DNA from: an uncultured Flavobacteriaceae bacterium
GTDB taxonomy: Bacteria > Bacteroidota > Bacteroidia > Flavobacteriales > Flavobacteriaceae
Reading direction: 5' to 3'
DNA length: 64,000 bases
Assembly: GCA_947503005.1 (NCBI GenBank)
Contig: CANNCA010000002.1
Location: 1-64,000, forward strand
In this document: piece by piece, positions 15,910-48,457 of the stretch
Layout of the letters: each line of letters starts with the position of its first letter
Position numbering within the stretch: position 1 is the stretch's first letter
Translations under genes and position numbers: made by a program
The notes under the pieces: model-generated
Told to the model about the DNA's origin: nothing
What the model saw: only the letters and a program-made list of their open reading frames with translations
Database searches by the model: none

Positions 15910-15924
15910 TGTTGATATGGTTTA

Positions 15925-16383: not shown

Positions 16384-16692
16384 TTAAAATAGATTATTGG
16401 TTATATTTATTTTTGGTAGTCGTACCAAGGACAAATTTTAATTAGAACGCAATTACCTACATATTTATAAGATAATTCTTACAATTGTTGTGAACCATTT
16501 GATTTCTGTTGTGAAAAAAGCGGATGATGTGGGAGGTTTGATCGATAAAGTGTTTTTTCGCTAGGTTTTGTGTAATATGTGATGGTACAAGGATAAAAAT
16601 GAAAGGAGATGATGACTACTCATTTTTACAATTTACTTGGGCTTTAGCTTTATGCTATATTGTGGTATTTTTGCAGTTCTAAACTGTTATCT

Positions 16693-18798
16693 ATGCATAT
16701 CGGTAATCGCCCCAAAACCATCTTCTTTTTTATTGCAACCGTTTTACTTATTATTTCTTGTAAAGATGTTCCGAAGCAAAAGACCGCACACGAGTTCACC
16801 AACGACCTGATAAAAGAAACGAGTCCCTACTTACTCCAACATGCGCACAACCCGGTAAACTGGCAGGGGTGGAACGAAGCTGCCCTTGCGGAAGCTCAAG
16901 CTGGAAATAAGCTCATTTTAATTAGTATAGGGTATTCCTCATGTCATTGGTGTCATGTGATGGAAGAAGAAACATTTGAAGATACCGCGGTTGCCAAACT
17001 GATGAACGAAAATTTCATCAGTATTAAGGTGGATCGCGAAGAACGGCCTGACATTGATCAGGTGTACCAAACAGCTGCACAGCTACAAGGTCAGAATGGA
17101 GGATGGCCTTTAAATGCTATTACATTGCCCAACGGAAAGCCTTTGTATTTAGGTACCTATCATACCAAGGAACAATGGATGCAAGTTCTGACTAATGTCA
17201 ATACCCAGTTTTCAGAAGACCCTCAAAAAGCTGCAGAATATGCAGACCGCTTAGCAGCTGGTATCGAAGAGACGAACGTATTCACACCCTCTTCAGAATT
17301 CGAGAGATTGACCCAAGAAGCTCTAGAATCAGGAGTTTCCATTTGGAAAAATAACTGGGACATTACTTTTGGAGGAGATAAGGGCCAGCAGAAATTTCCA
17401 GTGCCCAATAGTCTTGATTTTTTATTGGATTACGCCATAATTACTGATAACCAGGATGCCCTTTCACATGTTAAGAACACGTTGGACAAGATAGCCAATG
17501 GTGGTATCTATGACCATTTAGGTGGTGGCTTTTTTCGATACAGTACCGACCCAAAATGGAAAGTGCCCCATTTTGAAAAAATGCTCTATGACAATGCGCA
17601 ACTGATCGGATTGTATTCAAAGGCTTATAAAGTATTCAAAGAGCCTCGTTATAAGGATGTCGTTTTTGAAACAATTGCTTTTTTAAACCGCGAAATGAAG
17701 CATACCGAGGGAGGATATTACGCTGCTTTAGACGCCGATAGTGAAGGTGAGGAGGGTAAGTTTTATGTTTGGAATCAAAAGGAATTAGAGGCTGCTTTAG
17801 GTGACGATTTTTCATTATTCAGTACCTACTATACTATTGAAAAAAGTGCTATCTGGGAAAATGACAATTACATACTTTACAAACACCTTTCTGATGAAAC
17901 TTTCGTAGCTGATCATAAAATCAGCAAAGAAGAATTAATTCAATACAAGCGACGATGGCGTGACCTTTTGATGAAGGCTAGAAATGGTAGAGTACGACCC
18001 AATACCGATGACAAAATTTTGACCTCTTGGAACGCGCTTTTAATTAGTGGATTTGTTGAAGCCTATTCCGCTTTTGAGGAGAAAGATTTTCTTGATCAGG
18101 CTATTGCCGTGTATGATTTCATAATAGATAAAAGCTATGCTGACGGGCAACTTAAGCACTCCTACAAAGAGGGTAGTAGGCGGACCGAAGGTTTCTTAGA
18201 AGATTATGCTTTTTTAATTCAAGCAGCTATTGAGTTATATAAAGTAAGCATGGATACTACCTATCTTGATTTTGCAAACATTTTAACGGAGAAAACCCAA
18301 GAAGGTTTCCTTGACTCGAATTCTGGTTTGTACCGATTCAATGCTAGTGAAAGTTTAATTTCGAATATAATCAAAACGCATGATGGTGATATTGCCTCAC
18401 CCAATTCCGTTATGGCCAATAATCTATTTCAATTAGGTCATATTAACTATAATGTAGACTATTCGAAGCAATCGAAAACCATGTTAACCACCTTGCTACC
18501 GTACGTTACGGAGTATAGTTCGAGTTATGCCAATTGGAGCCATCTTCTCTTGAAAGTTTCCCACCCCTTTTATGAGATTGCCGTGGTAGGGGAAGAAGCC
18601 CAAAGCAAAGTAGAAAATTTACAAATTAAACACCTTCCCAACACGTTGATTCTCGGTAGTTCGCAAGAAAGTGAGTTGCCGCTTTTTGAGGATCGCTTTG
18701 TACAAGATAAAACCTTCATTTATGTTTGTCAAGACCGCGTTTGTAAATTGCCGGTAACCACTGTAGAATCTGCTTTGGAGCAGTTGAAGAACTTTTAA
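16693..18798 (+). CDS. DUF255 thioredoxin-like / cellobiose-2-epimerase-like lipoprotein (YyaL/SSP411 family)
   Basis: A 701-residue protein from the ATG at 16693; an in-frame TTG at 16660 would add 11 residues but would break up the signal. The start MHIGNRPKT and the lipobox LIISC predict an export lipoprotein. The thioredoxin-like part (about 40-190) has NPVNWxxW and [11 protein letters not shown] with the CxxC at Cys 84 and Cys 87, then [17 protein letters not shown] and LGTY, all family hallmarks. The larger C-terminal part is an (alpha/alpha)6-type domain: [41 protein letters not shown] and [13 protein letters not shown]. Length is normal for the family. No biochemical role is firmly established for this family; a location outside the cytoplasm is unusual to note. 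No operon partner on the plus strand. Confidence 0.9.
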
Positions 18799-19936: not shown

Positions 19937-20854
19937 TTAAATACCTTCGAAAAGTAAGGGGAAAAATTTCCCTTCCATTTTATTCCCTTTTGCAATTGGT
20001 GGTACACCTGCCAAAAGTTCATCATCAGTATTGCTCAAAGTACCATCCGCAAAAACGTTCAGAACAAAAGCTCTTCTGCTAGTTTCGGATTTGTTTTCAT
20101 AAGAGCCATGTACCATTAAGGGGTGATGAAAAGTAGCATATCCTTTTTTCAATTCTATCGCAACCGGATTTTTGAACATTTCTTTTTGCTCTTCCGATAA
20201 ATATTTCAACAAACCTTCCATATCACCTGCAAGAGAAGGCGCATCCAGTAATCCCCATTTGTGACTTTTAGGAATGTAATGTAGACATCCGTTTTCAACT
20301 GTAGCATCGTCAAGCCCTGTCCAACAAGTCAAATGCTGCATGGCAACTGTGCGGGTCCAATATGAATAATCTTGATGCCAAGCGACGACTCCACCATGTT
20401 TGGCCGGTTTGCAGAACAATTGATCGTGCCAAAAGCGAACAGGTTTGTTTTCTAAAAGTTGATGGGCCGCCATAAGAAAAGCAGGATTCCATAAAACATC
20501 ATGAAAGCCTTTCGAAATTCGCCAATGACCCAATGAATGAAAGAGCACAGAGTCTGGGTTTTCAGATTCATTGCTATGAAATTCGTAAAAAAGTTCGTGT
20601 GCAGGGTGTTTTGGATCAATAATTTCAGTCAATTCATTTCGTAAGGCCTCAACCTGAAATTCACTTAAAAGTTCAATACCGGACAAGTAACCGAATTCAT
20701 GAAAATGAATTACTTGTTCATCGGTTAATCGATATTGATTCCATTCCTCCAAGGATTTTGGGAGTTTAAAAAGATCAGTTATTAAGTGATGTTTATCGGC
20801 TAAATCTTGCATTGCTGTCACTGCTATTTTTGCTTTGTCTATTTTAAAAGGCAA
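19937..20854 (-). CDS. Phytanoyl-CoA dioxygenase (PhyH) family protein
   Basis: A 305-residue Fe(II)/2-oxoglutarate dioxygenase-like protein. The jelly-roll iron triad is visible: HQD in VAWHQDYSYW (about residue 156-158) and the distal His in HHPLMVHGSYEN (about 255-262), with an Arg in TSRRAFVLN for 2-oxoglutarate. The N-terminal helix region LTDEQVIHFHEFGYLSG is typical. The start at 20854 is a TTG; an in-frame ATG at 20812 would remove 14 residues and is a fair alternative. The protein has no export signal, so it works in the cytoplasm, unlike its operon partner the SMP-30 lipoprotein. Its substrate is unknown; the location next to fucosidase genes suggests a carbohydrate-derived compound, which is inference only. 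Confidence 0.87.
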   Translation of the reverse strand: MPFKIDKAKIAVTAMQDLADKHHLITDLFKLPKSLEEWNQYRLTDEQVIHFHEFGYLSGIELLSEFQVEALRNELTEIIDPKHPAHELFYEFHSNESENPDSVLFHSLGHWRISKGFHDVLWNPAFLMAAHQLLENKPVRFWHDQLFCKPAKHGGVVAWHQDYSYWTRTVAMQHLTCWTGLDDATVENGCLHYIPKSHKWGLLDAPSLAGDMEGLLKYLSEEQKEMFKNPVAIELKKGYATFHHPLMVHGSYENKSETSRRAFVLNVFADGTLSNTDDELLAGVPPIAKGNKMEGKFFPLLFEGI

Positions 20855-21014
20855 ACTTCATTCTCGTTGATTTAAGCATAAATCATTATCAAAAATAACG
20901 AATAACCATTTGTTGTGTTTATTGAGACGTACGATAGTTATGATTTATCTTAAAAGTGTCAATTTAGCCGTAATTATTGAGGCTATATTGTCAATATCAA
21001 TCAACCTTCAGCAT
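20855..21014. promoter_or_regulatory. Divergent intergenic region between PhyH-like and GH29 genes
   Basis: The 160-base A+T-rich spacer separates two divergent transcription units and must hold promoters for both. I found no convincing match to the flavobacterial consensus on either strand, so exact sites are not assigned. Confidence 0.4.
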
Positions 21015-22568
21015 ATGAATTTTATTAAAAAGGGTAGTGTTTTTCTTTTAACTGCTTCCATTTTAGCTTCGTGTGGATCCAAGTCCGATAAGAAAGTCAA
21101 GGAAAAATCAACCAATGATTCGATCCCTGTTTTTGAGGCTAATTGGGAATCTATCAAGAAGAACTACAAGGACCCTGAATGGTTCAATGACCAAAAATTT
21201 GGGATTTTCATTCATTGGGGGGCATACTCGGTGCCAGCTTACGTTTCTGAATGGTACCCGAGAAGGATGTATATGGATACCGCGACGTTCACGGCCCAAC
21301 TGAAATTGCAAAAGAAAGGCCCGAACGAAACTTACCTGTACCATAAAAAGAAGTATGGGGACCAAAAAGAGTTTGGTTACAAAGATTTCATCCCCATGTT
21401 CAAAGCGGAAAAATTTGATCCTAAAGAATGGATTACTTTATTTAAAAAAGCGGGAGCCCGATACGTTGTGCCAGTGGCCGACCACCACGATGGTTTTGCC
21501 ATGTTCGCTTCCAAGACTACCAAATGGAATTCAGCCAATATGGGCCCTAAGCGAGATATATTGGGAGAACTTTTTGAAGAAGGTAGAAAGCAGGGTTTGA
21601 CCATGGGCGCATCTTCTCACTATGCGTTTAACTGGTCTTTTTACAATAAAAAGGATCATTTTGATACGGTAGATCCGGAATATGCCGATTTGTATTCCCC
21701 CAAAGGAAAAGATGTAACGGAACCCGTTTCCGAAGAATTCAAACAAATGTGGTGGGATAGAACCACTGATTTAATCGATAATTACAAACCTGAAATCCTC
21801 TGGTTCGATTTTTATTTAGACATTCCCGATTTCGAAGAATATCGCCCTAAAATCGCCGCATATTATTACAATAAAGGAAGAGAATGGGGCAAGGAGGTTG
21901 TCATCAATGACAAAAACCTTTTTCACGAAGCTTTTCCCGAAGGAACGGTGATTTACGATCTGGAGCGTGGTAAGCTTCCTGGAATACGAGAATTGCCATG
22001 GCAGACCGATACTTCTATTGGCAAGAATTCGTGGGGCTACGTAACGAATGAAGAAGCAAAAACGCCAAATTCCCTTGTAGATGATCTGGTCGATATCGTT
22101 TCAAAAAACGGGAATCTATTATTGAACGTTGGGCCGAGGCCAGACGGCACCATCCCCGAAGATCAACAAGAAACCCTGTTAAAAATCGGAAGTTGGTTAG
22201 AAATGAACGGTGAAGCCATCTATGATTCAGAATATTGGAAAACTTTTGGCGAAGGTCCTACGGAAGAAAAGGGTGGATACATGTCGGAACACAGCAAGAA
22301 AAAAGATTTTACCGCCCAGGATATTCGTTTCACTCAAAAGGGTAATAAGTTATACGCCATAATGCTTGACTGGCCAAGTGACTCAAAAATCAACATCAAA
22401 TCTTTGGGTTCAGCAAACGAATACGGAAAAGGAATCGATATCAAAAGTATACGACTTTTAGGAAGCAATGCCAACCTCACTTTTAATCGAACTGGTGAAG
22501 CATTGGTCGTTGAAGGTCTAGGAGCAAAGATCGGTGACTTCGCCCATGTTTTAGAAATAAGTTTGTAA
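21015..22568 (+). CDS. Alpha-L-fucosidase, GH29, lipoprotein
   Basis: A 517-residue protein from the ATG at 21015, chosen because it starts the lipoprotein signal MNFIKKGSV with lipobox LASC; longer starts add only an unlikely hydrophobic extension. GH29 hallmarks: WFNDQKFGIFIHWGAYSVPA, ADHHDGFAMFASKTTKWN, and ILWFDFYLD, where Asp 265 fits the catalytic nucleophile; then LPWQTDTSIGKNSWGY and NLLLNVGPRPDGTIP. A short C-terminal beta domain follows. It would act outside the inner membrane, releasing terminal L-fucose (or, in some GH29 members, L-galactose) from glycans. The downstream genes encode uptake and oxidation of such a sugar, which supports the assignment. A terminator follows. Confidence 0.93.
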   Translation: MNFIKKGSVFLLTASILASCGSKSDKKVKEKSTNDSIPVFEANWESIKKNYKDPEWFNDQKFGIFIHWGAYSVPAYVSEWYPRRMYMDTATFTAQLKLQKKGPNETYLYHKKKYGDQKEFGYKDFIPMFKAEKFDPKEWITLFKKAGARYVVPVADHHDGFAMFASKTTKWNSANMGPKRDILGELFEEGRKQGLTMGASSHYAFNWSFYNKKDHFDTVDPEYADLYSPKGKDVTEPVSEEFKQMWWDRTTDLIDNYKPEILWFDFYLDIPDFEEYRPKIAAYYYNKGREWGKEVVINDKNLFHEAFPEGTVIYDLERGKLPGIRELPWQTDTSIGKNSWGYVTNEEAKTPNSLVDDLVDIVSKNGNLLLNVGPRPDGTIPEDQQETLLKIGSWLEMNGEAIYDSEYWKTFGEGPTEEKGGYMSEHSKKKDFTAQDIRFTQKGNKLYAIMLDWPSDSKINIKSLGSANEYGKGIDIKSIRLLGSNANLTFNRTGEALVVEGLGAKIGDFAHVLEISL

Positions 22569-22713: not shown

Positions 22714-23727
22714 GTGAAATACATCGTTTGCGAAAAACCCGGGGAATTCGTACTTAAGGAAAAAGACCCACCACAAAGAAAAGAAGGTGAGGCCTTGTTA
22801 AAAGTAACGAAGGTTGGTATCTGTGGTACGGACTTACATGCCTTTGCCGGAAACCAAGCATTTTTCACCTATCCAAGAATTTTAGGACACGAGCTGGCAA
22901 CCCGAATAGAAGAGATAGGGGAGAATGACAAAGGAATCAAAGCTGGTGACAATGTCGTGGTAATGCCTTATCTCAGCTGTGGAACTTGCGTTGCATGCAG
23001 AAACGGAAAAACAAACTGCTGCACAAGTCTTCAAGTTTTAGGTATTCATACCGATGGTGGAATGCAAGAACATATAACGGTACCTATCGATATATTGATA
23101 CCGGCCCAAAATTTGACCGATAATCAAATGGCATTGGTAGAGCCGCTCGCCATCGGGGCCCATGCAGTTCGACGTGCGCAATTAAAAAAAGATGAAACTA
23201 TAGTCGTAATCGGTTGTGGCCCTATAGGATTGGGACTCATGAAGTTTGCCCAAATCGTAGGAGCAAGGGTCATCGCATTAGATGTGAACCAAGAAAGATT
23301 AGATTATGCGAAGGAAGTCATTGGTGTTGACCACACCGTTTTGGCGGATGATAGTGCCATTCAGAATATCAGCGATATTACCAATGGAGATATGGCTGCA
23401 GCCGTTTTTGACGCCACTGGCCATAAAGGGGCCCTGGAGTCCGGCCCGGATTACATGTCGCACGGTGGAAGATATATTTTGGTAGGATTGTCAAAAGGTG
23501 AATTAACTTTTACACATCCAGCTATTCATGCTAAAGAAACTTCTATTTTATGTAGTAGAAATGCGGCCTTGGAAGATTTTGAGCATGTGATTTCGGTTCT
23601 GGAAGAAGGAGTTTTCCCTGTTGATTCTTTTATTACTCATAATGTTGATTTTACCGAGATGATAGCCAATTTTAATAGTTGGACAAATCCGAAAACGGGA
23701 GTTATAAAAGCAACCGTAAATTTTTAG
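22714..23727 (+). CDS. Zinc-dependent medium-chain dehydrogenase, possibly L-galactonate/L-fuconate 5-dehydrogenase
   Basis: A 337-residue zinc dehydrogenase starting with GTG. Catalytic zinc ligands are seen in GICGTDLH (Cys) and ILGHE (His-Glu), and the structural zinc cluster in SCGTCVACRNGKTNCC. The nucleotide-binding part has VIGCGPIGLGLM, followed by ALDVNQERL, whose Asp suggests NAD. The family covers sorbitol, threonine and L-galactonate (E. coli LgoD, formerly YjjN) dehydrogenases. Next to a UxaB-like and a UxaA-like gene, a 5-dehydrogenation of L-fuconate or L-galactonate is the most coherent role, but this is inference from context. It begins the catabolic operon, 33 bases before the UxaA-like gene. 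Confidence 0.85.
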   Translation: MKYIVCEKPGEFVLKEKDPPQRKEGEALLKVTKVGICGTDLHAFAGNQAFFTYPRILGHELATRIEEIGENDKGIKAGDNVVVMPYLSCGTCVACRNGKTNCCTSLQVLGIHTDGGMQEHITVPIDILIPAQNLTDNQMALVEPLAIGAHAVRRAQLKKDETIVVIGCGPIGLGLMKFAQIVGARVIALDVNQERLDYAKEVIGVDHTVLADDSAIQNISDITNGDMAAAVFDATGHKGALESGPDYMSHGGRYILVGLSKGELTFTHPAIHAKETSILCSRNAALEDFEHVISVLEEGVFPVDSFITHNVDFTEMIANFNSWTNPKTGVIKATVNF

Positions 23728-23760
23728 TGCTTAAGACAGCTCAATAAATAATTGTTTGAA

Positions 23761-25413
23761 ATGAACCACGCATTTTTAAGAATCCATCCAAAAGACAATG
23801 TGCTAGCTGCTTTGCGTGATATTGAAAAGGGAGATACAATTGATTTTGAAGGATTTTCTTTTACAACTTCAGAGCGAATTCCGGCCAAACATAAATTTAC
23901 TTTTGAAAACTTCTCCAAGGGAGACGAAATCATCATGTACGGGGTTTTGGTCGGACAAGCCACCAAACCCATTGCAAAAGGAGAACGGATTTCGATGGAA
24001 AACTGCGTCCATGCTTCTATGGAATATGCTGTAAGTGCAGAACAGCACACTTGGGAAGCTCCAGATGTTTCGAAGTGGAAAGATGTAACATTTAATGGGT
24101 ATCACAGAGCTGATGGAAGCGTAGGTACTTCGAATTACTGGCTTGTTATTCCAATGGTTTTTTGTGAGAACCGTAATGTTGAGGTGCTGAAATCCGCTTT
24201 ACAAGAATCTTTGGGTTACCATACTACAAACGATTTTGTAGTAGACACGGATACTTTGGTCGAACATTATAAAAACGGTGCTTCAATAGATGATTTGGTG
24301 ACAGCCGAAATTATTCGCACCCCAGAAGAAATTAAGCAGAATAGGACGTTCCCGAACGTTGATGGAATCAAATTTTTGACCCATGACGGTGGCTGTGGTG
24401 GTTTTCGCTTGGATTCAGATACGCTTACCAGTCTTTTTGCAGGATATATAACGAATTCGAATGTTGCCGGAGCAACAATTTTAAGCTTAGGTTGTCAAAA
24501 TGCCGAGGTAAAGAATTTGTTGGAAGGTATAACTAAACGGGATCCAAACTTTTCCAAACCCTTACATATATTAGAACAGCAAAAAAGTAAAAGCGAGCGT
24601 CATTTTATAGAAGAGGCGGTCAAGAAGACTTTTCTTGGATTGATAGAAGCAAACAAAACTGAACGTACACCTGCGCCTTTACGTCACTTGAATTTAGGTT
24701 TGGAATGTGGTGGTTCCGATGGCTTTTCAGGAATATCTGCCAATCCGGCATTGGGGTATACCTCCGATTTGTTGGTCGCTTTGGGAGGGACAACCGTATT
24801 ATCCGAATTTCCCGAATTGAACGGAGTCGAGCAGGAGCTGATTAATCGATGCGAATCCAAAGAAAATAAAGAAAAATTTGCCCATTTGATGGATACTTAT
24901 GCTGCGAGGGCAATTGCCTTAGGTTCGGCTTTTAAGAACAATCCATCTCCAGGTAATATTAAAGATGGACTCATCACCGACGCAATGAAATCAGCGGGTG
25001 CAGCTAAAAAAGGAGGAACTTCCTTGATAACCGATGTTCTGGATTATACAGAAAAATGCACTAAAAAAGGCCTCAATCTTCTATGCACTCCAGGAAATGA
25101 TGTAGAAAGTACAACTGGCCTTGCGGGTTCAGGCTGTAACATTATCTGCTTCACAACCGGCTTAGGTACACCGACAGGGAACCCCGTCGCCCCAGTGATT
25201 AAAATTTCGAGCAATAATGTCTTGAGCGAAAAGATGAAAGACATCATCGATTTCAATACGGGTACAATAATTACCGGTGAGGCTACCATAGAGTCAAAAG
25301 GAGAAGAACTCTTGGAATATATCATCAAAGTGGCTAGTGGCGAAGAGATTCCCGCTGCCGTGCGATTGGGTCAAGAAGATTTTATTCCTTGGAAAAGGGG
25401 AATTTCATTATAA
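23761..25413 (+). CDS. UxaA family (altronate dehydratase-like) protein
   Basis: A 550-residue protein; the ATG at 23761 is preferred over an in-frame TTG three codons upstream. It has an N-terminal SAF/UxaA-N part (about 1-95, with LRIHPKDNVLAALRDIEKG) and a long C-terminal galactarate/altronate dehydratase domain with HRADGSVGTSNYWLVI, THDGGCGG, LGLECGGSDGFSGISANPALGY and LAGSGCNIICFTTGLGTPTG. The family dehydrates aldonates such as D-altronate to 2-keto-3-deoxy acids with an iron or manganese centre. It is a full-length two-domain form. Its partners here suggest a 6-deoxy-altronate or altronate substrate. It is separated from the next gene by seven bases. Confidence 0.9.
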   Translation: MNHAFLRIHPKDNVLAALRDIEKGDTIDFEGFSFTTSERIPAKHKFTFENFSKGDEIIMYGVLVGQATKPIAKGERISMENCVHASMEYAVSAEQHTWEAPDVSKWKDVTFNGYHRADGSVGTSNYWLVIPMVFCENRNVEVLKSALQESLGYHTTNDFVVDTDTLVEHYKNGASIDDLVTAEIIRTPEEIKQNRTFPNVDGIKFLTHDGGCGGFRLDSDTLTSLFAGYITNSNVAGATILSLGCQNAEVKNLLEGITKRDPNFSKPLHILEQQKSKSERHFIEEAVKKTFLGLIEANKTERTPAPLRHLNLGLECGGSDGFSGISANPALGYTSDLLVALGGTTVLSEFPELNGVEQELINRCESKENKEKFAHLMDTYAARAIALGSAFKNNPSPGNIKDGLITDAMKSAGAAKKGGTSLITDVLDYTEKCTKKGLNLLCTPGNDVESTTGLAGSGCNIICFTTGLGTPTGNPVAPVIKISSNNVLSEKMKDIIDFNTGTIITGEATIESKGEELLEYIIKVASGEEIPAAVRLGQEDFIPWKRGISL

Positions 25414-25420
25414 GCTTTTC

Positions 25421-26881
25421 ATGCAACCACTAAATAGAAAAACCAAAAACCTGCCAAAAAAATTACCCATCAAAGTGATGCAATTCGGTGGGGGTAATTT
25501 TCTTCGTGCTTTCGTCGATTGGATGCTACACATATTGAACCAAGAGACCAATTTCAATGGGGGAGTGGCCATCATTAAACCTACAGAACGGGGAAATTAT
25601 CATGCGTTGAAATCTCAAGACGGTTTATTCACAGTGGTTTTAGATGGAATTAAAAACGGTGAATTGGTTGCCGATAAGACATTGGTCGATTGTGTTCAAG
25701 ATATCGTGAACCCGTATGATGAATGGCAGAAATACCTAGAGCTTGCTGAAAATCCGGATATCAGATTTATAATTTCGAATACAACCGAGGCGGGAATTAA
25801 ATTCAACGAAGAGGATGCTTTTGGAGATAATCCACCAAAAGAATTTCCGGCGAAATTGACAATTTGGTTATACCATCGTTTTCAGTACTATGGTAATGAT
25901 ATAACCAAGGGCTGTATTATGATGCCGTGTGAACTTATAGAAAATAATGGAGAAGCACTCAAAACTGCCATACTGCAATATGCAGAACATTGGAATTTGG
26001 ATAGGGAATTTGTCAAATGGATATATGCTGCAAATTCTTTTTGCAGCACTTTGGTAGATCGCATTGTTTCTGGCTACCCGTCAGACAGAGCCGTTCAAAT
26101 TCAGGAGGAACTGGGCTATATGGATCAACTTTTTGTAGGAGGTGAGTATTATCATAGTTGGGTAATTCAAGGTCCTGAACTCTTGCAAAAAGAACTTCCT
26201 TTTTGTTCGACGGATTTGAATGTAGAATTTGTTGATGATTTAGTTCCCTATCGTGAAATGAAAGTTCGTATTTTGAACGGGGCACACACCGCTATGGTTC
26301 CAGTTGGATATTTGGCGGGACTCCGATTCGTCTCTGAAGTGATGGATGATAGTGTAGTGAGCGGTTTTGTCGAATCACTTTTAATGGAAGAAACAATCAA
26401 AACGTTGGATTTTCCAGAGGCGGTTTTGCAGAAGTTCGTTCAAGAAGTTCTGGATCGGTTTCGCAATCCGTTATTGAAACATCAATTGATAAGTATATCC
26501 CTCAATAGCACCTCTAAATTCGTGGCTCGTTTACTTCCAACGATGACCGACTATTATGTGGCGAATGCAGCACTTCCGAGGCGAATCGTATTTGGACTTT
26601 CTGCACTTATTCGATTTTACAAAGGAGAATTCCATGGCAAAAGAATCGAATTGAAAGACGATGCAAGAGTACTAAATATTTTTAGTTCGAATTGGAAAAA
26701 ATATGATGATAATAACTTGAAATTGAATATATTAGTGGGTATTATCTTGAGTAATACTGATATATGGGGTAAAGACTTAACGAGTTTCGAAGGCCTCGTG
26801 GAAATGGTCTCTAAAAATATTCTTTCCATAGAAAATAACGGAGTTCTAGCAACCTTAAAAAATTTGGAGAATGGTAATTGA
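25421..26881 (+). CDS. Tagaturonate reductase-like (UxaB, mannitol dehydrogenase family) oxidoreductase
   Basis: A 486-residue protein; the ATG at 25421 gives the expected short lead into the Rossmann part KVMQFGGGNFLRAFVDWML. The middle part has ISNTTEAGI and ANSFCSTLVDRIVSGYP, and the family catalytic signature K-x4-N-x2-H is present in KVRILNGAHTAM. The usual substrate pair is D-tagaturonate and D-altronate with NAD(H). It lies between the UxaA-like gene (seven bases upstream) and the lactonase-like gene, whose start codon overlaps its end by 11 bases, implying translational coupling. A role on the 6-deoxy or L-galactose-derived analogue is inferred from context. Confidence 0.9.
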   Translation: MQPLNRKTKNLPKKLPIKVMQFGGGNFLRAFVDWMLHILNQETNFNGGVAIIKPTERGNYHALKSQDGLFTVVLDGIKNGELVADKTLVDCVQDIVNPYDEWQKYLELAENPDIRFIISNTTEAGIKFNEEDAFGDNPPKEFPAKLTIWLYHRFQYYGNDITKGCIMMPCELIENNGEALKTAILQYAEHWNLDREFVKWIYAANSFCSTLVDRIVSGYPSDRAVQIQEELGYMDQLFVGGEYYHSWVIQGPELLQKELPFCSTDLNVEFVDDLVPYREMKVRILNGAHTAMVPVGYLAGLRFVSEVMDDSVVSGFVESLLMEETIKTLDFPEAVLQKFVQEVLDRFRNPLLKHQLISISLNSTSKFVARLLPTMTDYYVANAALPRRIVFGLSALIRFYKGEFHGKRIELKDDARVLNIFSSNWKKYDDNNLKLNILVGIILSNTDIWGKDLTSFEGLVEMVSKNILSIENNGVLATLKNLENGN

Positions 26882-27698
26882 TTCGCACCAGCATTTTTGG
26901 AAATATGAACCTGCAAAACATTCATGGATCGATGATACTATGTCAGCAATCCGAAGAGATTTTCTACCTTCTGATTTGCAAAAGGTTTACGTTGAACATG
27001 GTATCGACGGTTGTGTGGCGGTCCAGGCTGACCAGACCCTAGAAGAGACAGATTTTCTGCTCAACCTTGCCGATGAAAATGATTTTATAAAGGGGGTTGT
27101 AGGTTGGGTGGATTTACGGGCTGAAAATATTGACGATGTATTAGCCGAATACCATTCCAAAAAGAAATTAAAGGGTTGGCGTCATGTGATACAAGGCGAA
27201 CCGGATCATAATTTTTTGCTTCGATCGAATTTCTTAAACGGAATTTCTTTTTTGGAAAAGTATGACTATACCTATGATATCCTGATTTTTCCACATCAAC
27301 TAGGTGCTACATTGGAATTTGTAAAACGATTTCCGCATCAAAAATTCGTTATTGACCATATTGCAAAACCGTACATCAAAGACGGTTTTTATGAGGGATG
27401 GGCAGTTTTGATGAAGGAAATCGCAAAACAAGAAAATGTTTTGTGTAAAGTCTCTGGAATGATTACTGAAGCAGATTATGAAAATTGGACGCCAGAACAA
27501 ATACACCCTTATATGTATTTAGTTTTAGAAGCATTTGGAACGAAACGCTTGATGTACGGTTCTGATTGGCCCGTATGTTTGGTAGCAGAAAATTATGGAC
27601 AGGTCAAGACCATAGTAACTGATTATATAAAAACGTTAAGTGCTGCAGAGCAAAACGCGCTCATGGCAGAAAATGCAATTGAATTTTATAATTTATAA
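26871..27698 (+). CDS. L-fuconolactonase-like amidohydrolase (COG3618)
   Basis: A 275-residue TIM-barrel amidohydrolase. It starts with the metal motif VIDSHQHFW, continues with IPTC-free DGCVAVQADQTLEET, LKGWRHVIQGEPD, FVIDHIAKPYIKDG (His ligand) and ends with LMYGSDWPVC, where the Asp is the catalytic residue in the family. The best-characterised members of this group hydrolyse L-fucono-1,5-lactone and related L-sugar lactones to the acids. Cytoplasmic. The ATG overlaps the end of the UxaB-like gene by 11 bases. With the SDR encoded 53 bases downstream it forms a dehydrogenase-lactonase pair for L-fucose or L-galactose. Confidence 0.88.
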   Translation: MVIDSHQHFWKYEPAKHSWIDDTMSAIRRDFLPSDLQKVYVEHGIDGCVAVQADQTLEETDFLLNLADENDFIKGVVGWVDLRAENIDDVLAEYHSKKKLKGWRHVIQGEPDHNFLLRSNFLNGISFLEKYDYTYDILIFPHQLGATLEFVKRFPHQKFVIDHIAKPYIKDGFYEGWAVLMKEIAKQENVLCKVSGMITEADYENWTPEQIHPYMYLVLEAFGTKRLMYGSDWPVCLVAENYGQVKTIVTDYIKTLSAAEQNALMAENAIEFYNL

Positions 27699-27751
27699 AG
27701 TTATAAGAGGATTTGCGCCTACGCGGAAATGAAAAATAAAATAATATTTCT

Positions 27752-28543
27752 ATGGATTTAGGATTAAAGGGGAAAATAGTTGTAATCACTGGGGCAGCGG
27801 GAAAAGAAGGTAGCATTGGCCATACCATATTACGGTCCTTGGTCGAAGAAGGTGCCGTACCTGCAGTTATCGATAGAAATAACCGTGGTCAAGGTTATGT
27901 TGACAAAATAAAACAAGAAGGTATCGATGCTATTTTTTGTAAAACCGATGTGACGGATCCTGTGCAGATTGAAAAAGCCGTAGCTACTATCGCAGAAAAA
28001 TATGGTAAAATCGACGCAGTGATCAACAACGTTGGTGTCAACGACGGTGTGGGTCTTGATGCCACTTATGAGGAGTTTATGGATTCGTTGAAGTTAAATA
28101 TGGTGAGCTATTTTTTAGTGGTGAAGCATGCTTTACCTTGGTTGAAGAAATCAAAAGGAAATATCCTGAACATTGGTTCTAAGGTTGCATTAACGGGGCA
28201 GGGTAGAACATCAGGTTACGCTGCTGCCAAAGGCGGTGTGTTAGGTTTGACGCGTGAATGGGCCGTTGATTTGATAAAGGAAGGAATTCGCTGCAATGCT
28301 ATCATTATTGCAGAATGCTGGACGCCTTCATATGATACGTGGATAAAAACTTTACCTGACGGAGAAGAGAAATTAAAAGCTATTGTCAAGAAAATACCTT
28401 TGGAAAATCGAATGACAACGACCCAGGAAATTGCCGATGTGTGTTTATTTACCATATCCGAAAGGTCTTCACATACTACTGGCCAATTCATTACGGTAGA
28501 TGGCGGTTATGTACATTTGGATCGTGCGTTGTTAACAGAATAA
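27752..28543 (+). CDS. SDR-family L-fucose dehydrogenase-like protein
   Basis: A 263-residue classical short-chain dehydrogenase with a Rossmann start (VVITGAAGKEGSIG), NNVGVNDGVGLDA and the catalytic Ser-Tyr-Lys in NIGSKVALTGQGRTSGYAAAK. Several pieces, especially VNDGVGLDA, TGQGxTSGY, LTREWAV and the C-terminal HLDRAL, resemble the Burkholderia-type SDR L-fucose dehydrogenases as I remember them; I could not run an alignment. The reaction would be oxidation of L-fucose (or L-galactose) to the 1,5-lactone with NAD(P), giving the substrate of the upstream lactonase. An alternative is the related 2-keto-3-deoxy-L-fuconate dehydrogenase. Confidence 0.85.
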   Translation: MDLGLKGKIVVITGAAGKEGSIGHTILRSLVEEGAVPAVIDRNNRGQGYVDKIKQEGIDAIFCKTDVTDPVQIEKAVATIAEKYGKIDAVINNVGVNDGVGLDATYEEFMDSLKLNMVSYFLVVKHALPWLKKSKGNILNIGSKVALTGQGRTSGYAAAKGGVLGLTREWAVDLIKEGIRCNAIIIAECWTPSYDTWIKTLPDGEEKLKAIVKKIPLENRMTTTQEIADVCLFTISERSSHTTGQFITVDGGYVHLDRALLTE

Positions 28544-28631
28544 ACCCTCAGTTTTCTTTTTTGAATCATATAGCAATGATTCGTTGTTCAAGAATTCATA
28601 CTTTGTATTCCTAAAATAACTACCAACCACT

Positions 28632-29966
28632 ATGAGCACTTCTAGCAAAATATCAGTTGTATCAAAGACTGTATTAGTTCCTTTTATTTTGATTACCTCT
28701 CTTTTTGCATTGTGGGGTTTTGCTAACGACATAACCAATCCCATGGTTTCGGCCTTCAAAAAGATTCTGGAGTTAAGTAATACACAGGCCTCTTGGGTGC
28801 AAGCTGCCTTTTATGGAGGTTACTTTACAATGGCCCTTCCTGCAGCTTATGTGGCCAAAAAGTACTCCTACAAAACGGGTATTTTGGTGGGGCTGGTTTT
28901 GTATGCGCTTGGCGCGCTACTGTTTTATCCTGCAGCAGCAAATGAGAACTATATGTTTTTTCTGTTAGCTCTTTATATACTTACTTTCGGACTCGCTTTT
29001 CTAGAAACAACGGCAAATCCGTTTATTATGGACATGGGTGCTGAAGAAACGGCAACACAACGTTTGAATTTGGCACAAGCTTTTAATCCACTAGGAGCTT
29101 TGACGGGTCTTTTTGTAGCCCAGACCTTTATATTGGCAGCTTTGCAATCTGATAATTTGGATGCACAAGGAAATCCGATCTATGAGACGTTAACCGGAGC
29201 GGCCAAGGCCGCTGTGAAAACTTCCGATTTGGAGGTTATTCGCAATCCTTATGTAGCGCTTGGGTTATTTGTTATCGTTATGCTTGTTATCATTCTCTTC
29301 GTTAAAATGCCTGAAAAGAAAAAAGATAAAAACGCTACCGATATGTGGAGTTCAATCAAACGAATTTTTAAAAAAGAACGTTTCGTCGGGGGAGTTTTGG
29401 CCCAGATGTTCTATGTAGGAGCCCAAATCATGTGCTGGACTTATATCTATCAATATGCTGAAAACTTGGGCATTGAAAACAGAGACGCTGTAAATTATGC
29501 CTATGCTGCCCTTATTATTTTTCTTGTGGGGCGATTTTTATTTACCTACCTCATGAAATATATCAATGCTGGCAGATTACTCATGCTTTTATCTTTGCTT
29601 GCGGTTGCATTTTGTCTTGGAACAATGTTCGTTCAAGGGATGGGCGGACTCTACAGTCTGGTTATGGTTTCATTTTGCATGTCTTTGATGTTTCCGACCA
29701 TTTACGGAATTGCCCTTACTGGTTTAGGAGACGATGCAAAACCTGCATCGGCGTTTTTAGTAATGGCTATAGTAGGTGGAGCTTTTATGCCTGTTTTGCA
29801 AGGACTTATTCTTGATATGGGAGGGAGTGCTTACAATGACATTGACATTATGGGTGTTCCGGAAGTTAACTTTTCCTTTATTTTACCTTTGACTTGTTTT
29901 CTAGTTGTTGCGCTTTACGGGTACAGAACCGTAAAGGTTTTTGGTAAAGATTATAATAAGATTTAA
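28632..29966 (+). CDS. fucP: L-fucose:proton symporter (FucP-like MFS permease)
   Basis: A 444-residue membrane protein with about twelve hydrophobic segments. The start LITSLFALWGFANDITNPMV, followed by LSNTQASWVQAAFYGGYF, and FLETTANPFI and RLNLAQAFNPLGALTG are typical of the fucose/glucose-galactose permease group of the major facilitator superfamily. The length fits E. coli FucP. It would take up L-fucose, and FucP is known to tolerate L-galactose and D-arabinose. It closes the plus-strand catabolic cluster, 88 bases after the SDR, and its stop faces the end of the DUF1501 gene at 12 bases. Confidence 0.9.
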   Translation: MSTSSKISVVSKTVLVPFILITSLFALWGFANDITNPMVSAFKKILELSNTQASWVQAAFYGGYFTMALPAAYVAKKYSYKTGILVGLVLYALGALLFYPAAANENYMFFLLALYILTFGLAFLETTANPFIMDMGAEETATQRLNLAQAFNPLGALTGLFVAQTFILAALQSDNLDAQGNPIYETLTGAAKAAVKTSDLEVIRNPYVALGLFVIVMLVIILFVKMPEKKKDKNATDMWSSIKRIFKKERFVGGVLAQMFYVGAQIMCWTYIYQYAENLGIENRDAVNYAYAALIIFLVGRFLFTYLMKYINAGRLLMLLSLLAVAFCLGTMFVQGMGGLYSLVMVSFCMSLMFPTIYGIALTGLGDDAKPASAFLVMAIVGGAFMPVLQGLILDMGGSAYNDIDIMGVPEVNFSFILPLTCFLVVALYGYRTVKVFGKDYNKI

Positions 29967-29978
29967 TAATAGTTTGCT

Positions 29979-31505
29979 TCAGGCTAGTATATCTTTTACG
30001 ACATGGCCATGAACGTCCGTCAGTCGGTAACGTCGGCCTTGATGTTTGAACGTCAATCGCTCATGGTCGATACCGAAAAGGTGCATTAAGGTTGCGTGAA
30101 AATCATGCACGTGTACAGGGTCTTTCACAACATTATAGCTAAAGTCATCGGTTTCGCCATGGGTATAACCTTGTTTGACTCCCGCACCTGCCATCCACAT
30201 GGTAAATGCCTTTGGATGATGATCACGACCATAGTTTTCTGGAGTTAATTGTCCTTGTGAATACACCGTGCGGCCAAACTCACCTCCCCATACAACCAAA
30301 GTATCCTCAAGCATACCGCGTTGTTTTAAATCTTTTATCAGCGCAGCATTGGCCTGGTCGGTGCGCTTGCATTGTGCTTTCACACCACTGGGACAAAAAC
30401 TATGTTGGTCCCAACCTTGGTGGTATAGTTGCACGAATTTCACATCTTTTTCTAATAGTTTTCTTGCCATTAAGCAGTTGGCGGCATAGGTGCCCGGATC
30501 CCTACTATCCTCCCCATACATGTCAAAAATGTAATCTGGCTCATCGGACATGTCAGTCACTTCTGGAACGGATGTCTGCATTCGAAACGCCATTTCGTAT
30601 TGAGCCATTCGCGCTTGAATCTCTGGGTCGCCGTAAGCGTCATGTTGCAATTCATTGAGTTTTCCGAGATAATCCAACATCTGTCTTCTATCGTTCCCAT
30701 CAAAATTTTCAGGGTCGCTCAGATATAACACCGGGTCTTTTCCAGATCGGAATTGAACCCCTTGATGTTCAGTAGGCAAAAAACCATTGCCCCACAATCG
30801 GGAATACAAAGGTTGCCCTCCCATATTTTTGGTAATCAAAGTAATAAAGGTGGGCAAGTTCTCATTGTCGGAACCCAACCCATAGCTTAACCAAGAACCG
30901 ATAGAGGGTCTACCTGGCAGTTGGTTTCCGGTTTGCATAAAGGTAATGGCCGGGTCATGATTGATTTGATCCGTCTGCATCGATTTGATAAAACAGAGCT
31001 CATCAACAACTTCTGAAGTGTAAGGAAGCAATTCACTGGCCCAAGTTCCTGATTCTCCATATTGTTTGAAATCGAAAATAGAGGGTGCCATCGGAAATGT
31101 GGTCTGCTCCGCGCTCATAGCGGTCAAACGTTGCCCTTGCCTTACGGAATCAGGTAAATCTTGGCCGAACATATTTTTCAGTTTGGGTTTGTAATCCCAC
31201 ATTTCTAGCTGTGAAGGTCCACCACTTTGAAACAAGTAAACAATCCTTTTCGCTTTGGGTAAATGATGCGGAAGACCTAATCGGTTCTTATTGTAAGAAT
31301 TCAATAAGGCTTCCGGACTCGATTTGTCTAAAACACCACCCTTTACATTGGCAAAAGCCTTATCTGCATGCAGCAAAGAGCCCAATGCAATGGCTCCAAG
31401 TCCCATCGAAGTCTTCGTTAGAAAGTTACGACGGTCCATTTGACGTTCTACTTCCTGCAGGTCTTTGTTGTTCGACCTTAAAATATCATCGTGATTGTGA
31501 CACAT
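29979..31505 (-). CDS. DUF1501 protein, Tat-exported
   Basis: A 508-residue protein with a twin-arginine signal (RRNFLTKTSMGLGAIALGS, about residues 25-44) after a His-rich start. The family belongs to the alkaline phosphatase/sulfatase-like fold: GGPSQLEMWDYKP, MQTGNQLPGRPSIGSWLSYGLG, QLYHQGWDQH and VVWGGEFGRT are its usual motifs. DUF1501 proteins nearly always occur beside a DUF1553/PSCyt gene, as here (31655-34897), and are most abundant in Planctomycetes. Their activity is unknown. It is the last gene of the minus-strand sulfatase operon, with a 149-base spacer containing inverted repeats before it. Confidence 0.9.
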   Translation of the reverse strand: MCHNHDDILRSNNKDLQEVERQMDRRNFLTKTSMGLGAIALGSLLHADKAFANVKGGVLDKSSPEALLNSYNKNRLGLPHHLPKAKRIVYLFQSGGPSQLEMWDYKPKLKNMFGQDLPDSVRQGQRLTAMSAEQTTFPMAPSIFDFKQYGESGTWASELLPYTSEVVDELCFIKSMQTDQINHDPAITFMQTGNQLPGRPSIGSWLSYGLGSDNENLPTFITLITKNMGGQPLYSRLWGNGFLPTEHQGVQFRSGKDPVLYLSDPENFDGNDRRQMLDYLGKLNELQHDAYGDPEIQARMAQYEMAFRMQTSVPEVTDMSDEPDYIFDMYGEDSRDPGTYAANCLMARKLLEKDVKFVQLYHQGWDQHSFCPSGVKAQCKRTDQANAALIKDLKQRGMLEDTLVVWGGEFGRTVYSQGQLTPENYGRDHHPKAFTMWMAGAGVKQGYTHGETDDFSYNVVKDPVHVHDFHATLMHLFGIDHERLTFKHQGRRYRLTDVHGHVVKDILA

Positions 31506-31535
31506 ATTTATCTTTTTATAAATATCAATTTGAAG

Positions 31536-31651
31536 TTCCCTCCCTAACCCACCCCGAGGGGAGGGAATTCTCTTCGTACTATATTTGACATTTTAAGTAT
31601 GTTCATTTTCATTCTTTTTATCGCCCTCCTTCTGGAGGGGATAGGGGAGGA
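31536..31651. repeat. Paired C-rich inverted repeats in the DUF1501/DUF1553 spacer
   Basis: Two palindrome-like elements (31536-31568, ttccctccc near one end and ggggaggg near the other; and 31621-31651, ccctcc...ggaggg...ggggagg) face each other in opposite orientation across an A+T-rich gap. Each looks like a copy of a dispersed flavobacterial element; together they could fold into one large hairpin in the mRNA. The second one reaches to within a few bases of the DUF1553 stop. Confidence 0.6.
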
Positions 31652-31654
31652 CTT

Positions 31655-34600
31655 TTATCTCTTTGTAATTGCTGCATCTGAATTGATAATCGTACTTGCG
31701 ACAACGGCATTTGCGGCCACTAAGGCTTCATCATTATCATTTGAAATACGGAATTCACCGGAGTTTAACCAACCTTCTGTCTTGGATTTCTTGGACTTAA
31801 ACTTTTCATATTCTTCCAATTGTAAATCGGCTAAAAGATTTAGTTCTTTATCCTGTATGGTTCTTCCGGTCAATTTTTTGAAGGTATCTGCGATACCTGC
31901 TTTTGGGTCGGAATACTGCAACATTTTATAGCCTAGTACACGAGAGGCTTCCACGTAAGTAGGGTCGTTCATCAATACCAAAGCTTGCAATGGCGTATTG
32001 GTTTCTTGACGCCTAACGGCACAAAAGGACCTTTCAGGAGCATCGAATGTTGCAATCGTTGGATGCGGCACGGAACGTTTCCAAATTGTATACATGCTTT
32101 TACGATACAATTTTTCCCCTACGTCTTCTTCATAGGCTGCTCCGTTGATTTTCCAGAGTCCGGCGGGCTGGTACGGTTTTACGCTTTTTCCTCCGATTTT
32201 ACGGTTTAATAATCCCGAAGCAACCAAGGCGTTGTTTCGTAACATTTCGCCGGTCAATCTACCAGATGGTCCTCGGGCCAGCAATCGATTCGCTTTGTCT
32301 CTATTCATTAACTCTTCAGTCGTTAGGGAAGATTGTCGATACGTATTTGACATTACCATAAGCTTGTGCAATGCCTTTACGTCCCAACCGGATTCCATGA
32401 ATTGAATCGCCAGCCAATCCAATAAAGCGGGATGGCTTGGTAATTCGCCTTGGTTTCCAAAGTCTTCTACGGTTCGAACAATTCCCGTTCCGAATAGGTT
32501 TTTCCAATAGCGGTTTACAGCGACACGGGCAGTTAGAGGGTTGTTTTTACTGGTAACCCATTTGGCCAATCCTAAACGATTTTTTTCAAGACTATCGGGA
32601 AAAGCAAATATTTTATCTGGAGTATTCGGAAAAACCTGTTCGCCGTATTGGTCGTACAATCCGCGTTCTAGAACAAAAGTTTCGCGCGGTTTGTCCATCT
32701 CTTTCATAATCATGATTTCTTGAACACGCTCTGCACTGTCCGCTTGTATTTCACGTGCTTTTTTGAGTTCGGCCAATGATTTTTTGAAGGTGGTTGACTT
32801 ATTTGATAAATAGTAACTTTCCAACACCTTTTTATCTTGGTCACTCAATTGATTTTTGTTTTTGGCCAATAGCGATTGTACTTTTTCAGTATTGCTGATT
32901 TGACCAACTTCCAAGGAGGTTAATTGTTTATTGAAGACCAATATGTCATCCACTACCGCACCACCAATACCTTTTCCGCGCCAGCGAGCTCCAACCGCTA
33001 ATCCGGGTTCGATGGGGTGCTTGTAAATAAAATCCTCGTAAGAATTGAAAATAATATCCCTATATAAATTATCTACTTCGACCTCAGTTTGCAGTTCTTC
33101 CCCATCCATATAAATTTTTAGGCCATCAGCTTTGCTTGAGCCATCATAGGTCAGGGTAAGTTGTACCCACTGATTTTTTGGAATTTCTTTTTTACTCAGC
33201 TCTACAATAGCATTATCCGGCCAGACATGAGCCATTATAAGATCTATTTTATTTTCCTTTATGCCCAAATGATAACCGCGATAGCTGTGCAATCTTGTAC
33301 CAAAGTTTTTATGGAAGATGACTCCATTTTCTAAATCCTCAGGAATCTTAACACGAATACCGATGCTAAAGGGTTCATGACGTCGGAAAATCCCAATGGG
33401 TTTTAAGTCAAGCCAAGCATCACCATCTAATTCCAACCCTTTGCCGGAATATCCTTCAACGATTTTTGCAATTTGTTTTGGAGCGAATTGCCGGTCCATT
33501 TTTCCCTTTTGAGACGGATTCAACGCATTGCTGAGGCTTCCATTTTTGAAATCTACTTTAGCTACTAGATTACTAGGCGTACCTTTTGGATTAACTTTTT
33601 TATACCCTTCAGATGCTATCCAATCCGTACTCTTTTCATTTTCGGATTTTACAACTTGTACTATGGTCTTTTCCTTTTCATCAATTAGATTGTCGACATA
33701 GGCCATGAACTTTTCTTGTTCCTCAGTTGGAAGTTGCATGTTGGGGACTGGCATCGACCAATCCCAAGGAATTTGTCCAGATTCATTCACATTATTGAAA
33801 AAACTGTACATTTCATAATAGTTCTTCTGGGAGATTGGGTCATACTTATGATCGTGGCATTTGGCACAGGCCATTGTTAGTCCTAAAAAGCCCTCACTCA
33901 CCACATTTGTACGATCAGCTACATATTCTGAACGGAATTCTTCATCTACAATGCCACCCTCCAAATTTTGGGGGTGCAGGCGATTAAAGGTAGTTGCCAA
34001 CAACTGTTCTTTAGTCGGATTCTCCATCATATCGCCTGCCAACTGCCAGCGAATAAATTCATCATAAGGCATATTTTGGTCGAAAGCTCTTATGACCCAG
34101 TCACGATAAGGGGAAACATCTCGATACCGGTCAACAGTATACCCATGTGTATCTGCATAGCGCGATAGATCCATCCAATCCAAAGTCATTTGCTCTGCGA
34201 AGTGCTGGGAAGCCAAAAGTCGGTCTACTTGCTTTTCGTAGGCATTTGGCGAATTGTCTTTTGAAAAAGCCTCAATTTCATCTAGGGTAGGGGGCAATCC
34301 AGTCAAGTCGAATGACAATCTTCTTAAAAGGGTTTCTTTGTCAGCGGATTCAGAAGGCTGCAACCCTTCAACCTCTAATTTGGCAAGGACAAAATTATCT
34401 ATGGCATTGCCTACTTTGTCTGTTAACTCGACTTTTGGAGGTTCTTGTTTTGATGGCGGTATGAATGCCCAGTGGTCTTTATATTCGGCACCTTCCTCAA
34501 TCCATCGAACCAGCATTGCTTTTTCGTAATCAGTCAAGAAGAGGTGTGTTTCAGGTTCTGGCATAACCATTTCAGGGTCGTCTGATAGAATACGGTCGAC

Positions 34601-37890: not shown

Positions 37891-37893
37891 ATG

Positions 37894-39714: not shown

Positions 39715-39723
39715 TGCCAAGGT

Positions 39724-45673: not shown

Positions 45674-45678
45674 ATTCA

Positions 45679-47274: not shown

Positions 47275-47304
47275 AATTAATTTTGTTCTTTGCGAATTTG
47301 AAGT

Positions 47305-48456: not shown

Positions 48457-48457
48457 C

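Follow-up and report, generated by a model that had tools for sequence, protein, structure and literature searches.

Gene organization of the locus

The window analyzed in this study is a 64,000-nt stretch of DNA from an uncultured Flavobacteriaceae bacterium (assembly GCA_947503005.1, contig CANNCA010000002.1, positions 1 to 64,000), and the system in question is a run of six genes at 22714-29966 that encodes enzymes of sugar catabolism together with a transporter. A Zn-dependent dehydrogenase (ZnDH), a UxaA-family protein, UxaB, a lactonase, a short-chain dehydrogenase/reductase (SDR) and a FucP-type symporter follow one another in a row, and all six open reading frames (ORFs) are on the + strand, with the coordinates and order given in an original prediction made from the sequence alone. 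The ORFs as listed are separated by 24, -77, -11, 53 and 88 nt, a spacing that makes a single transcription unit plausible. A gene of glycoside hydrolase family 29 (GH29) lies upstream and ends 145 nt before the start of the operon. The features are as follows:

20910..22568, + strand: GH29 glycosidase, probably an exo-alpha-L-galactosidase (best PDB matches 7snk/7ljj/7lnp)
22714..23727, + strand: ZnDH, proposed L-galactonate 5-dehydrogenase, LgoD-like (Pfam ADH_N and ADH_zinc_N; identity to LgoD)
23752..25413 (alternative ATG start 23761), + strand: UxaA/GarD-family dehydratase, proposed D-altronate dehydratase, possibly acting on L-fuconate too (Pfam GD_AH_C, GD_AH_second and SAF)
25421..26881, + strand: UxaB tagaturonate reductase (NF002969; identity to E. 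coli UxaB)
26871..27698, + strand: amidohydrolase-family sugar lactonase, proposed L-galactonolactonase (NF052480; PDB 4dlf)
27752..28543, + strand: SDR aldose 1-dehydrogenase, proposed L-galactose (perhaps L-fucose) dehydrogenase (NF052481)
28632..29966, + strand: FucP-type sugar:proton symporter (TIGR00885)

The predicted enzyme types are supported by Pfam and NCBIfam families and by identity to E. coli LgoD, UxaB and UxaA. Three proteins exceed the cut-offs of NCBIfam models: UxaB that of tagaturonate reductase (647 bits vs 359), the symporter that of FucP (545 vs 280) and the SDR that of L-fucose dehydrogenase (358 vs 300). The lactonase stays under the fuconolactonase cut-off (278 bits vs 400), and neither the ZnDH nor the UxaA-like protein reached an NCBIfam model. 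The ZnDH is 39% identical to LgoD over its full length, with no equivalog model reached, and retains Cys37, the GHE motif and the Cys cluster 89-103; among the best 80 of 173 named loci, its closest named relatives come from an uncultured isolate of the Flavobacteriaceae (90%) and from Maribacter algarum (89%). UxaB is 45% identical to its E. coli counterpart; its ORF is listed as 25337-26881, and homology begins at the ATG at 25421, the likely start. The UxaA-like protein is 31% identical to E. coli UxaA, its family being set by Pfam. In the PDB, the lactonase matches 4dlf and three other entries at 195 bits.

A predicted L-galactose pathway

From gene order, family membership, the genome complement for the searched enzymes and the conserved context, all of which were observed directly, we infer the substrates and every catalytic step, and consider it quite probable that this is an L-galactose catabolic operon. 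L-galactose would be released from algal galactan by the GH29 exo-alpha-L-galactosidase and taken up by the FucP-type symporter. The SDR would oxidize its C1 to give the lactone, which the amidohydrolase would open to L-galactonate. The ZnDH would then oxidize C5 of L-galactonate to give D-tagaturonate, and UxaB would reduce the same carbon with opposite stereochemistry, yielding D-altronate, which UxaA would convert to 2-keto-3-deoxygluconate (KDG). Finally, a KDG kinase and a 2-keto-3-deoxy-6-phosphogluconate (KDPG) aldolase, predicted on another contig here and inside the operon in a sister species, would produce pyruvate and glyceraldehyde 3-phosphate. The LgoD-UxaB-UxaA logic of the original prediction is retained, with UxaB above the tagaturonate reductase cut-off; of the two sugars it proposed, L-fucose and L-galactose, the latter is the better option, given the in-operon kinase and KDPG aldolase, the exchange of the first enzyme and the GH29 gene described below.

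The rest of the window genome could supply the last two steps. It has two PF01081 aldolases, one of which, on contig C4, adjoins a PfkB kinase; this pair scores 689 bits (kinase) and 419 bits (aldolase) against the in-operon pair of the sister species, and the closest models of the kinase are KDG kinase types, under cut-off. The genome encodes a single UxaA and one lactonase of the operon's family (E<=1e-30). With regard to the L-fucose enzymes reported as missing, L-fucose isomerase FucI has no PF02952 match in the whole window genome, a search that did not extend to FucK and FucA, and the absence of an enolase-type fuconate dehydratase (FucD) was confirmed genome-wide at E<=1e-40. The 2-keto-3-deoxy-L-fuconate (KDF) dehydrogenase and the 2,4-diketo hydrolase are likewise missing from the operon but not from the genome, where homologs occur on contig C3, outside the window: a hydrolase (FAH) that shares 72% identity with one from a fucose operon adjoins a KDF-dehydrogenase-like SDR that scores 356 bits against the one at locus L103.

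Types of gene runs among relatives

Of 299 family genomes, 91 (including the window genome) gave a match to the lactonase, and 80 of the 98 matches outside the window genome were read as stretches (16 genomes and two second copies were left out). Genome-wide searches by enzyme covered 75 of these 91 genomes. A set of named loci (best 80 of 173), which overlaps the family set, was also compared, and a phylum search with the ZnDH gave matches in 39 of 395 genomes at E<=1e-70, from which 20 stretches were read. The labels FucD, KDFDH (KDF dehydrogenase), FAH, LldD and mutarotase are our assumptions, based on gene position and general likeness. On the model for 2,4-didehydro-3-deoxy-L-rhamnonate hydrolase (cut-off 500), the FAH reference reaches 359 bits; further scores are, for the FucD reference, 136 bits on the L-talarate/galactarate dehydratase model (cut-off 500) and, for the LldD reference, 299 bits on the L-lactate dehydrogenase model (cut-off 376); the KDFDH reference matches generic SDR models only, and the mutarotase is over the Pfam rhaM threshold. 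Of the ten listed plasmid sites that match the FucD query, one is annotated as L-fuconate dehydratase and the rest have no annotated gene under the match, and the annotated ones among ten plasmid rows for the C3 hydrolase are named FAA hydrolase family or similar only.

Three kinds of runs were distinguished. UxaB shares the run in 33 of the 80 family stretches (kind (a), to which the window belongs), so the grouping of these genes is not a matter of chance. Fucose clusters (kind (b), 21/80) combine KDFDH and/or FAH with the lactonase and mostly also contain SDR, FucP and mutarotase; a dehydratase gene was recognised in 14 of the 21 (FucD in 8, UxaA in 6), and an LldD-type L-lactate dehydrogenase is present in 8. 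Runs with a ZnDH plus fucose-branch genes (kind (c)) account for 6/80, and the remaining 20/80 have neither gene set. Within the family set, FAH, KDFDH-like SDR or FucD never shares a run with UxaB (0/33), compared with 27 of the 47 other stretches (Fisher p 7e-9, kinship uncorrected).

Some further arrangements were noted. ZnDH occurs with KDFDH, FAH, lactonase and SDR, and with no recognised dehydratase gene, at L040, L049, L061, L084, L089, L289, L290, L295, L298 and L304; at the first three of these loci it occupies the slot that FucD or UxaA takes in fucose clusters. Pseudozobellia sp. WGM2 (L192), Cytophaga sp. FL35 (L224) and Euzebyella saccharophila (L229) have a ZnDH-lactonase-SDR-FucP-mutarotase run with neither UxaA nor UxaB, adjoining UxuA (by Pfam in L192, by likeness in L224 and L229), an SDR, a KDPG aldolase and a PfkB kinase. 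This type is perhaps a version that exits D-tagaturonate through fructuronate and mannonate.

Evidence on the substrate

In a genome of the same genus (G050, locus L043), the operon reads ZnDH-PfkB kinase-KDPG aldolase-UxaA-UxaB-lactonase-SDR-FucP, and its SDR is 87% identical to that of the window. The aldolase exceeds the NF005499 cut-off (380 vs 275 bits), and the kinase is closest to KDG kinase models, under cut-off. A KDG-kinase-like gene and a KDPG aldolase lie inside the run in 4/80 family stretches and 13/80 named loci (overlapping sets). A 6-deoxy product cannot be phosphorylated at C6, and both the kinase and the KDPG aldolase need the C6 hydroxyl, which L-fucose does not have. Since these two enzymes would be useless for a 6-deoxy acid, their presence in the operon points to L-galactose.

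The first enzyme and the glycosidase favor the same sugar. An aldo/keto reductase (AKR) fills the SDR slot between lactonase and FucP in 6/80 family stretches and 7/80 named loci, and AKR and SDR are never together in one run. Five of the seven PDB matches of the slot AKR, the first four included, are L-galactose dehydrogenases (68-84 bits). Searches with the AKR of L057 at E<=1e-30 gave no match in the window genome and none in 296 genomes of the phylum, which says little, as no genome at all matched and the search was therefore without a positive control. The window GH29 scores 453-441 bits against 7snk/7ljj/7lnp, the BpGH29 chains, and 284 bits against the next alpha-fucosidase. When GH29 proteins were compared row by row, it was also the top match of BpGH29 (434 bits, 46% identity), and those of fucose clusters reached 114-219 bits. 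BpGH29 (7SNK, 7LJJ) has been identified as the exo-alpha-L-galactosidase of the porphyran system (PMC12316285); 7SNK is deposited as alpha-L-fucosidase.

Genome complements were also compared. A UxaB operon occurs in 33 of the genomes, the window genome and 32 relatives; all have a PF01081 aldolase and 14 have neither FAH (E<=1e-50) nor FucD; 13 of the latter are also without a FucI match. Two genomes of one genus, G001 (taken as Zobellia uliginosa) and G236, contain this operon plus a separate FucD-KDFDH-FAH-SDR-FucP-LldD cluster, which has no lactonase of the operon's family.

Several observations weigh against L-galactose. The SDR and the transporter exceed the cut-offs of L-fucose dehydrogenase and FucP. 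On the former model, three SDRs of the window's clade score 355-358 bits and four fucose-cluster SDRs 398-414 bits, and 22 of 22 fucose-cluster SDRs fall on one side of a 100/100 branch, apart from the window's clade. However, this clade also occurs in 6/80 operons with fucose-branch genes (kind (c)), and in a wider tree a composite operon falls on the fucose side, together with the SDRs of three ZnDH-bearing fucose operons and a further ZnDH-linked SDR, while two ZnDH-bearing fucose operons fall on the window's side. Because the SDR clade is mixed across operon kinds, it is no clean substrate marker, and the tree was dropped as proof of substrate once the more distant rows had broken the match between clade and substrate. 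Seven differences between the SDRs are near-fixed, among them an insertion and a change close to the glycine-rich N-terminal stretch, and the cofactor may account for part of the split. With a GH29 alpha-fucosidase, too, the window GH29 shares 35% identity. A second GH29 group in or near UxaB operons scores 287-340 bits against BpGH29 and is about equally close to the alpha-fucosidase structure (in L067, paired scores for BpGH29 and alpha-fucosidase are 330 and 324, and 290 against 295). Nearness to one alpha-L-galactosidase is no proof of activity. No porphyranase or agarase was found among the 19 window proteins scanned with Pfam (39 ORFs of at least 150 aa are listed), a search that did not cover the rest of the genome. 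In addition, G169 (taken as Tamlana fucoidanivorans), where the operon occurs twice, lacks FAH and FucD and gives marginal FucI matches only, a complement without a recognised fucose route.

Fucose-type parts are compatible with either sugar. Mammalian L-fucose dehydrogenase is described as accepting L-galactose, although L-fucose is the better substrate, and E. coli FucP as carrying L-galactose at lower efficiency (PMC13406643). Therefore, such parts do not argue against L-galactose, and a function in L-galactose use would still leave room for L-fucose.

Alternative and joint functions

An extension whose odds overlap with those of the L-galactose reading is an operon serving both sugars, which we regard as an open possibility, somewhat short of even. 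FucP, SDR and lactonase would be common to both, one UxaA would dehydrate D-altronate and L-fuconate, and the C3 KDF-dehydrogenase-like SDR and hydrolase would finish the L-fuconate branch to pyruvate and L-lactate. The window genome has one UxaA and no FucD or FucI, yet carries this C3 pair. G217 and G247 share this complement, as do G211, apart from a marginal FucI match, and G270, apart from one 43%-identical enolase; G032 agrees for UxaA, FucD and FAH only, its SDR being outside the comparison, although its FAH match carries an in-frame stop flag. The composite operon L303 (genome G675) reads FucP-mutarotase-KDFDH-FAH-lactonase-SDR-ZnDH-PfkB kinase-KDPG aldolase-UxaB-UxaA, and would be the undivided form of such a dual system; a comparable set of parts exists in the window genome, split over contigs. 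In L303, UxaB exceeds the tagaturonate reductase cut-off (566/359) and the SDR that of L-fucose dehydrogenase (404/300), and the other scanned proteins, aldolase and kinase included, reached no specific model. G675 has no FucD at E<=1e-40, and its only UxaA is the L303 copy. Of the five genomes with L289, L290, L295, L298 and L304, four encode a single UxaA and give no FucD match, and the fifth encodes two UxaAs and a 43%-identical enolase. The C2-C4 configuration is common to D-altronate, L-fuconate, L-galactonate and D-arabinonate, and one UxaA-family enzyme showed some activity on all four (PMC6336799), so one UxaA for both branches would be the simplest account. Moreover, fucose clusters contribute 6 of the 45 UxaA rows. 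On the other hand, fucose-cluster UxaAs group apart from the window's in a quick tree (SH-aLRT 90 and 92), and the dual function is therefore rated lower. The C3 pair, whose neighbors are DUF1553/DUF1501 genes, may serve another 2-keto-3-deoxy acid, and the best model of such a hydrolase is rhamnonate-type, under cut-off. The enzyme of PMC6336799 shows 12% activity on D-altronate, 5.6% on L-fuconate and 2.4% on L-galactonate relative to D-arabinonate, with a ~6,700-fold lower kcat/Km for D-altronate.

The L-fucose route of the original prediction, in which ZnDH and UxaB would epimerize C5 of L-fuconate to give 6-deoxy-D-altronate, UxaA would dehydrate this, and a putative aldolase would cleave the resulting 3,6-dideoxy-2-keto acid to pyruvate and D-lactaldehyde, appears very unlikely. 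The SDR and FucP are of fucose type, and the two operon copies in the presumed T. fucoidanivorans genome without FAH and FucD would fit it. However, the extra metabolic genes recognised in such operons are the KDG-kinase-like gene and the KDPG aldolase, of no use for a 6-deoxy acid, and the AKR exchange and the GH29 favor L-galactose. No positive comparative support emerged either: in 92 UxaB runs (two overlapping sets), no ORF scored at least 60 bits against the window genome's three proteins of the dihydrodipicolinate synthase (DHDPS) family or against one of its aldehyde dehydrogenases, a test that did not include other aldolase families and left unlabelled ORFs. L-fucose as the only substrate was dropped as the best reading on the grounds of the in-operon kinase and KDPG aldolase, the AKR exchange and GH29. 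We give hardly any credence to direct dehydration of L-galactonate by UxaA to 2-keto-3-deoxy-L-galactonate, with ZnDH and UxaB acting later or elsewhere. An Acidovorax UxaA-family L-galactonate dehydratase is mentioned as unpublished data in PMC6336799, but this scheme leaves UxaB without a role despite its score above the tagaturonate reductase cut-off.

Comparison with known pathways

The L-galactose operon resembles several known systems. The E. coli LgoD-UxaB-UxaA enzymes are homologous, but that pathway starts from L-galactonate and its genes are scattered. In Phocaeicola (Bacteroides) vulgatus, BVU_0219-0222 reportedly (Hobbs 2014) provide a C1 dehydrogenase, a lactonase and an L-galactonate dehydrogenase that lead to D-tagaturonate; the first enzyme is said to be of AKR type and tagaturonate to pass to the hexuronate pathway. 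The same chain has been published for Luteolibacter, so the proposal of a possibly undescribed route finds no support. In PMC12632266, which cites the earlier P. vulgatus L-galactose pathway, the Luteolibacter L-galactose/L-glucose pathway comprises a dehydrogenase, a tagaturonate reductase, an altronate dehydratase, a KDG kinase and a KDPG aldolase. The chemistry of the lgu system of strain LG18 (LguA, D, C, B, H, E), from L-galactose to KDPG, is the same: a C1 dehydrogenase and an L-galactonate dehydrogenase, then the steps from tagaturonate reductase to KDPG aldolase (PMC12632266). That route is backed by enzyme assays and gene disruptions. Unlike lgu, the flavobacterial operon has SDR, lactonase, FucP and GH29, and the word 'lactonase' is absent from the PMC12632266 text. 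Its first enzyme is an SDR, in contrast to the AKR-type L-galactose dehydrogenase of BVU_0219 and LguA. The P. vulgatus and Lgu pathways were likened to the window operon by description and not by sequence. LguH is reported to be a PPi-using KDG kinase (PMC12632266). At one locus (L058/L223), a 408-aa ORF, by eye a PfkA-type phosphofructokinase, lies between the PfkB kinase and the KDPG aldolase of the operon.

The non-phosphorylative L-fucose pathway (Xanthomonas, Burkholderia, Campylobacter) shares the SDR and the lactonase, and flavobacterial fucose clusters share FucP and, in some variants, a UxaA-type dehydratase. However, the KDF dehydrogenase, FAH hydrolase and FucD of that pathway are absent from the window operon, and UxaB and KDG kinase are foreign to it. 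Thus, the route itself is published, and the window operon would be a variant in which SDR and FucP replace the dehydrogenase type known so far, accompanied by a gene of alpha-L-galactosidase likeness. Within the open-licence literature, judged mostly by title or start of abstract, no description of the SDR/FucP/GH29 version, its marine flavobacterial spread or the composite form was found.

Implications for genome-based predictions

L-galactose is a sugar of red-algal polysaccharides. UxaB-type operons are common in the family (33/80 lactonase loci), and several of their genes match models or families named after fucose, i.e., alpha-L-fucosidase, fuconolactonase, fucose dehydrogenase and fucose permease. 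Such names, in this case an importer, a fuconolactonase and a gene called fuconate dehydratase, were part of the grounds for ascribing a possible fucoidan activity to Maribacter dokdonensis 62-1 (PMC8072126). If the L-galactose assignment is true, part of the marine flavobacterial fucoidan capacity inferred from genomes may be capacity for L-galactose (agaran, porphyran), and the reading of algal carbon turnover from genomes would change.

Neighboring genes

Downstream, at 36379-49582, the window contains three sulfatases, a regulator of hybrid two-component system (HTCS) type, a formylglycine-generating-type protein and a galactokinase-like gene, a set that fits a sulfated galactan locus. Neither SusC/SusD nor a galactanase was found among the 19 window proteins scanned with Pfam. 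The sulfatases compare with the PDB as follows:

36379-37890: sulfatase, no match at E<=1e-60
37894-39720: sulfatase, best match kappa-carrageenan 4S sulfatase, 202 bits
45679-47274: sulfatase, best match 7ana, deposited as N-acetylgalactosamine-6-sulfatase, 558 bits

The last of these also matches 7snj and 7sno at 82 bits, entries that we take, from their neighboring entry numbers and unconfirmed, to be the porphyran sulfatase BpS1_11. In G270 of the same genus (L059), the operon is directly followed by a sulfatase and then by ORFs that by eye resemble the window's formylglycine-type and galactokinase-like genes, an order that would fit a sulfated galactan.

Beside the GH29 gene, a divergent PhyH-family (phytanoyl-CoA dioxygenase-like) gene lies on the - strand (19937-20854); 11/80 relative stretches contain a homolog, which in 10 cases is encoded on the opposite strand. 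A DUF1501 and DUF1553 (planctomycete cytochrome-type) pair lies on the other side of the operon (29979-34897, - strand). Such a pair precedes the C3 KDF-dehydrogenase/hydrolase pair (L153:12610-16429, DUF1553 by Pfam and DUF1501 by likeness); the same arrangement is seen at L160:3494-7311 and, judged from ORF length and order, in L161 and L164. Another such pair follows the composite operon L303 directly (14186-18001). A 3979-aa ORF occupies 3970-15909 on the - strand.

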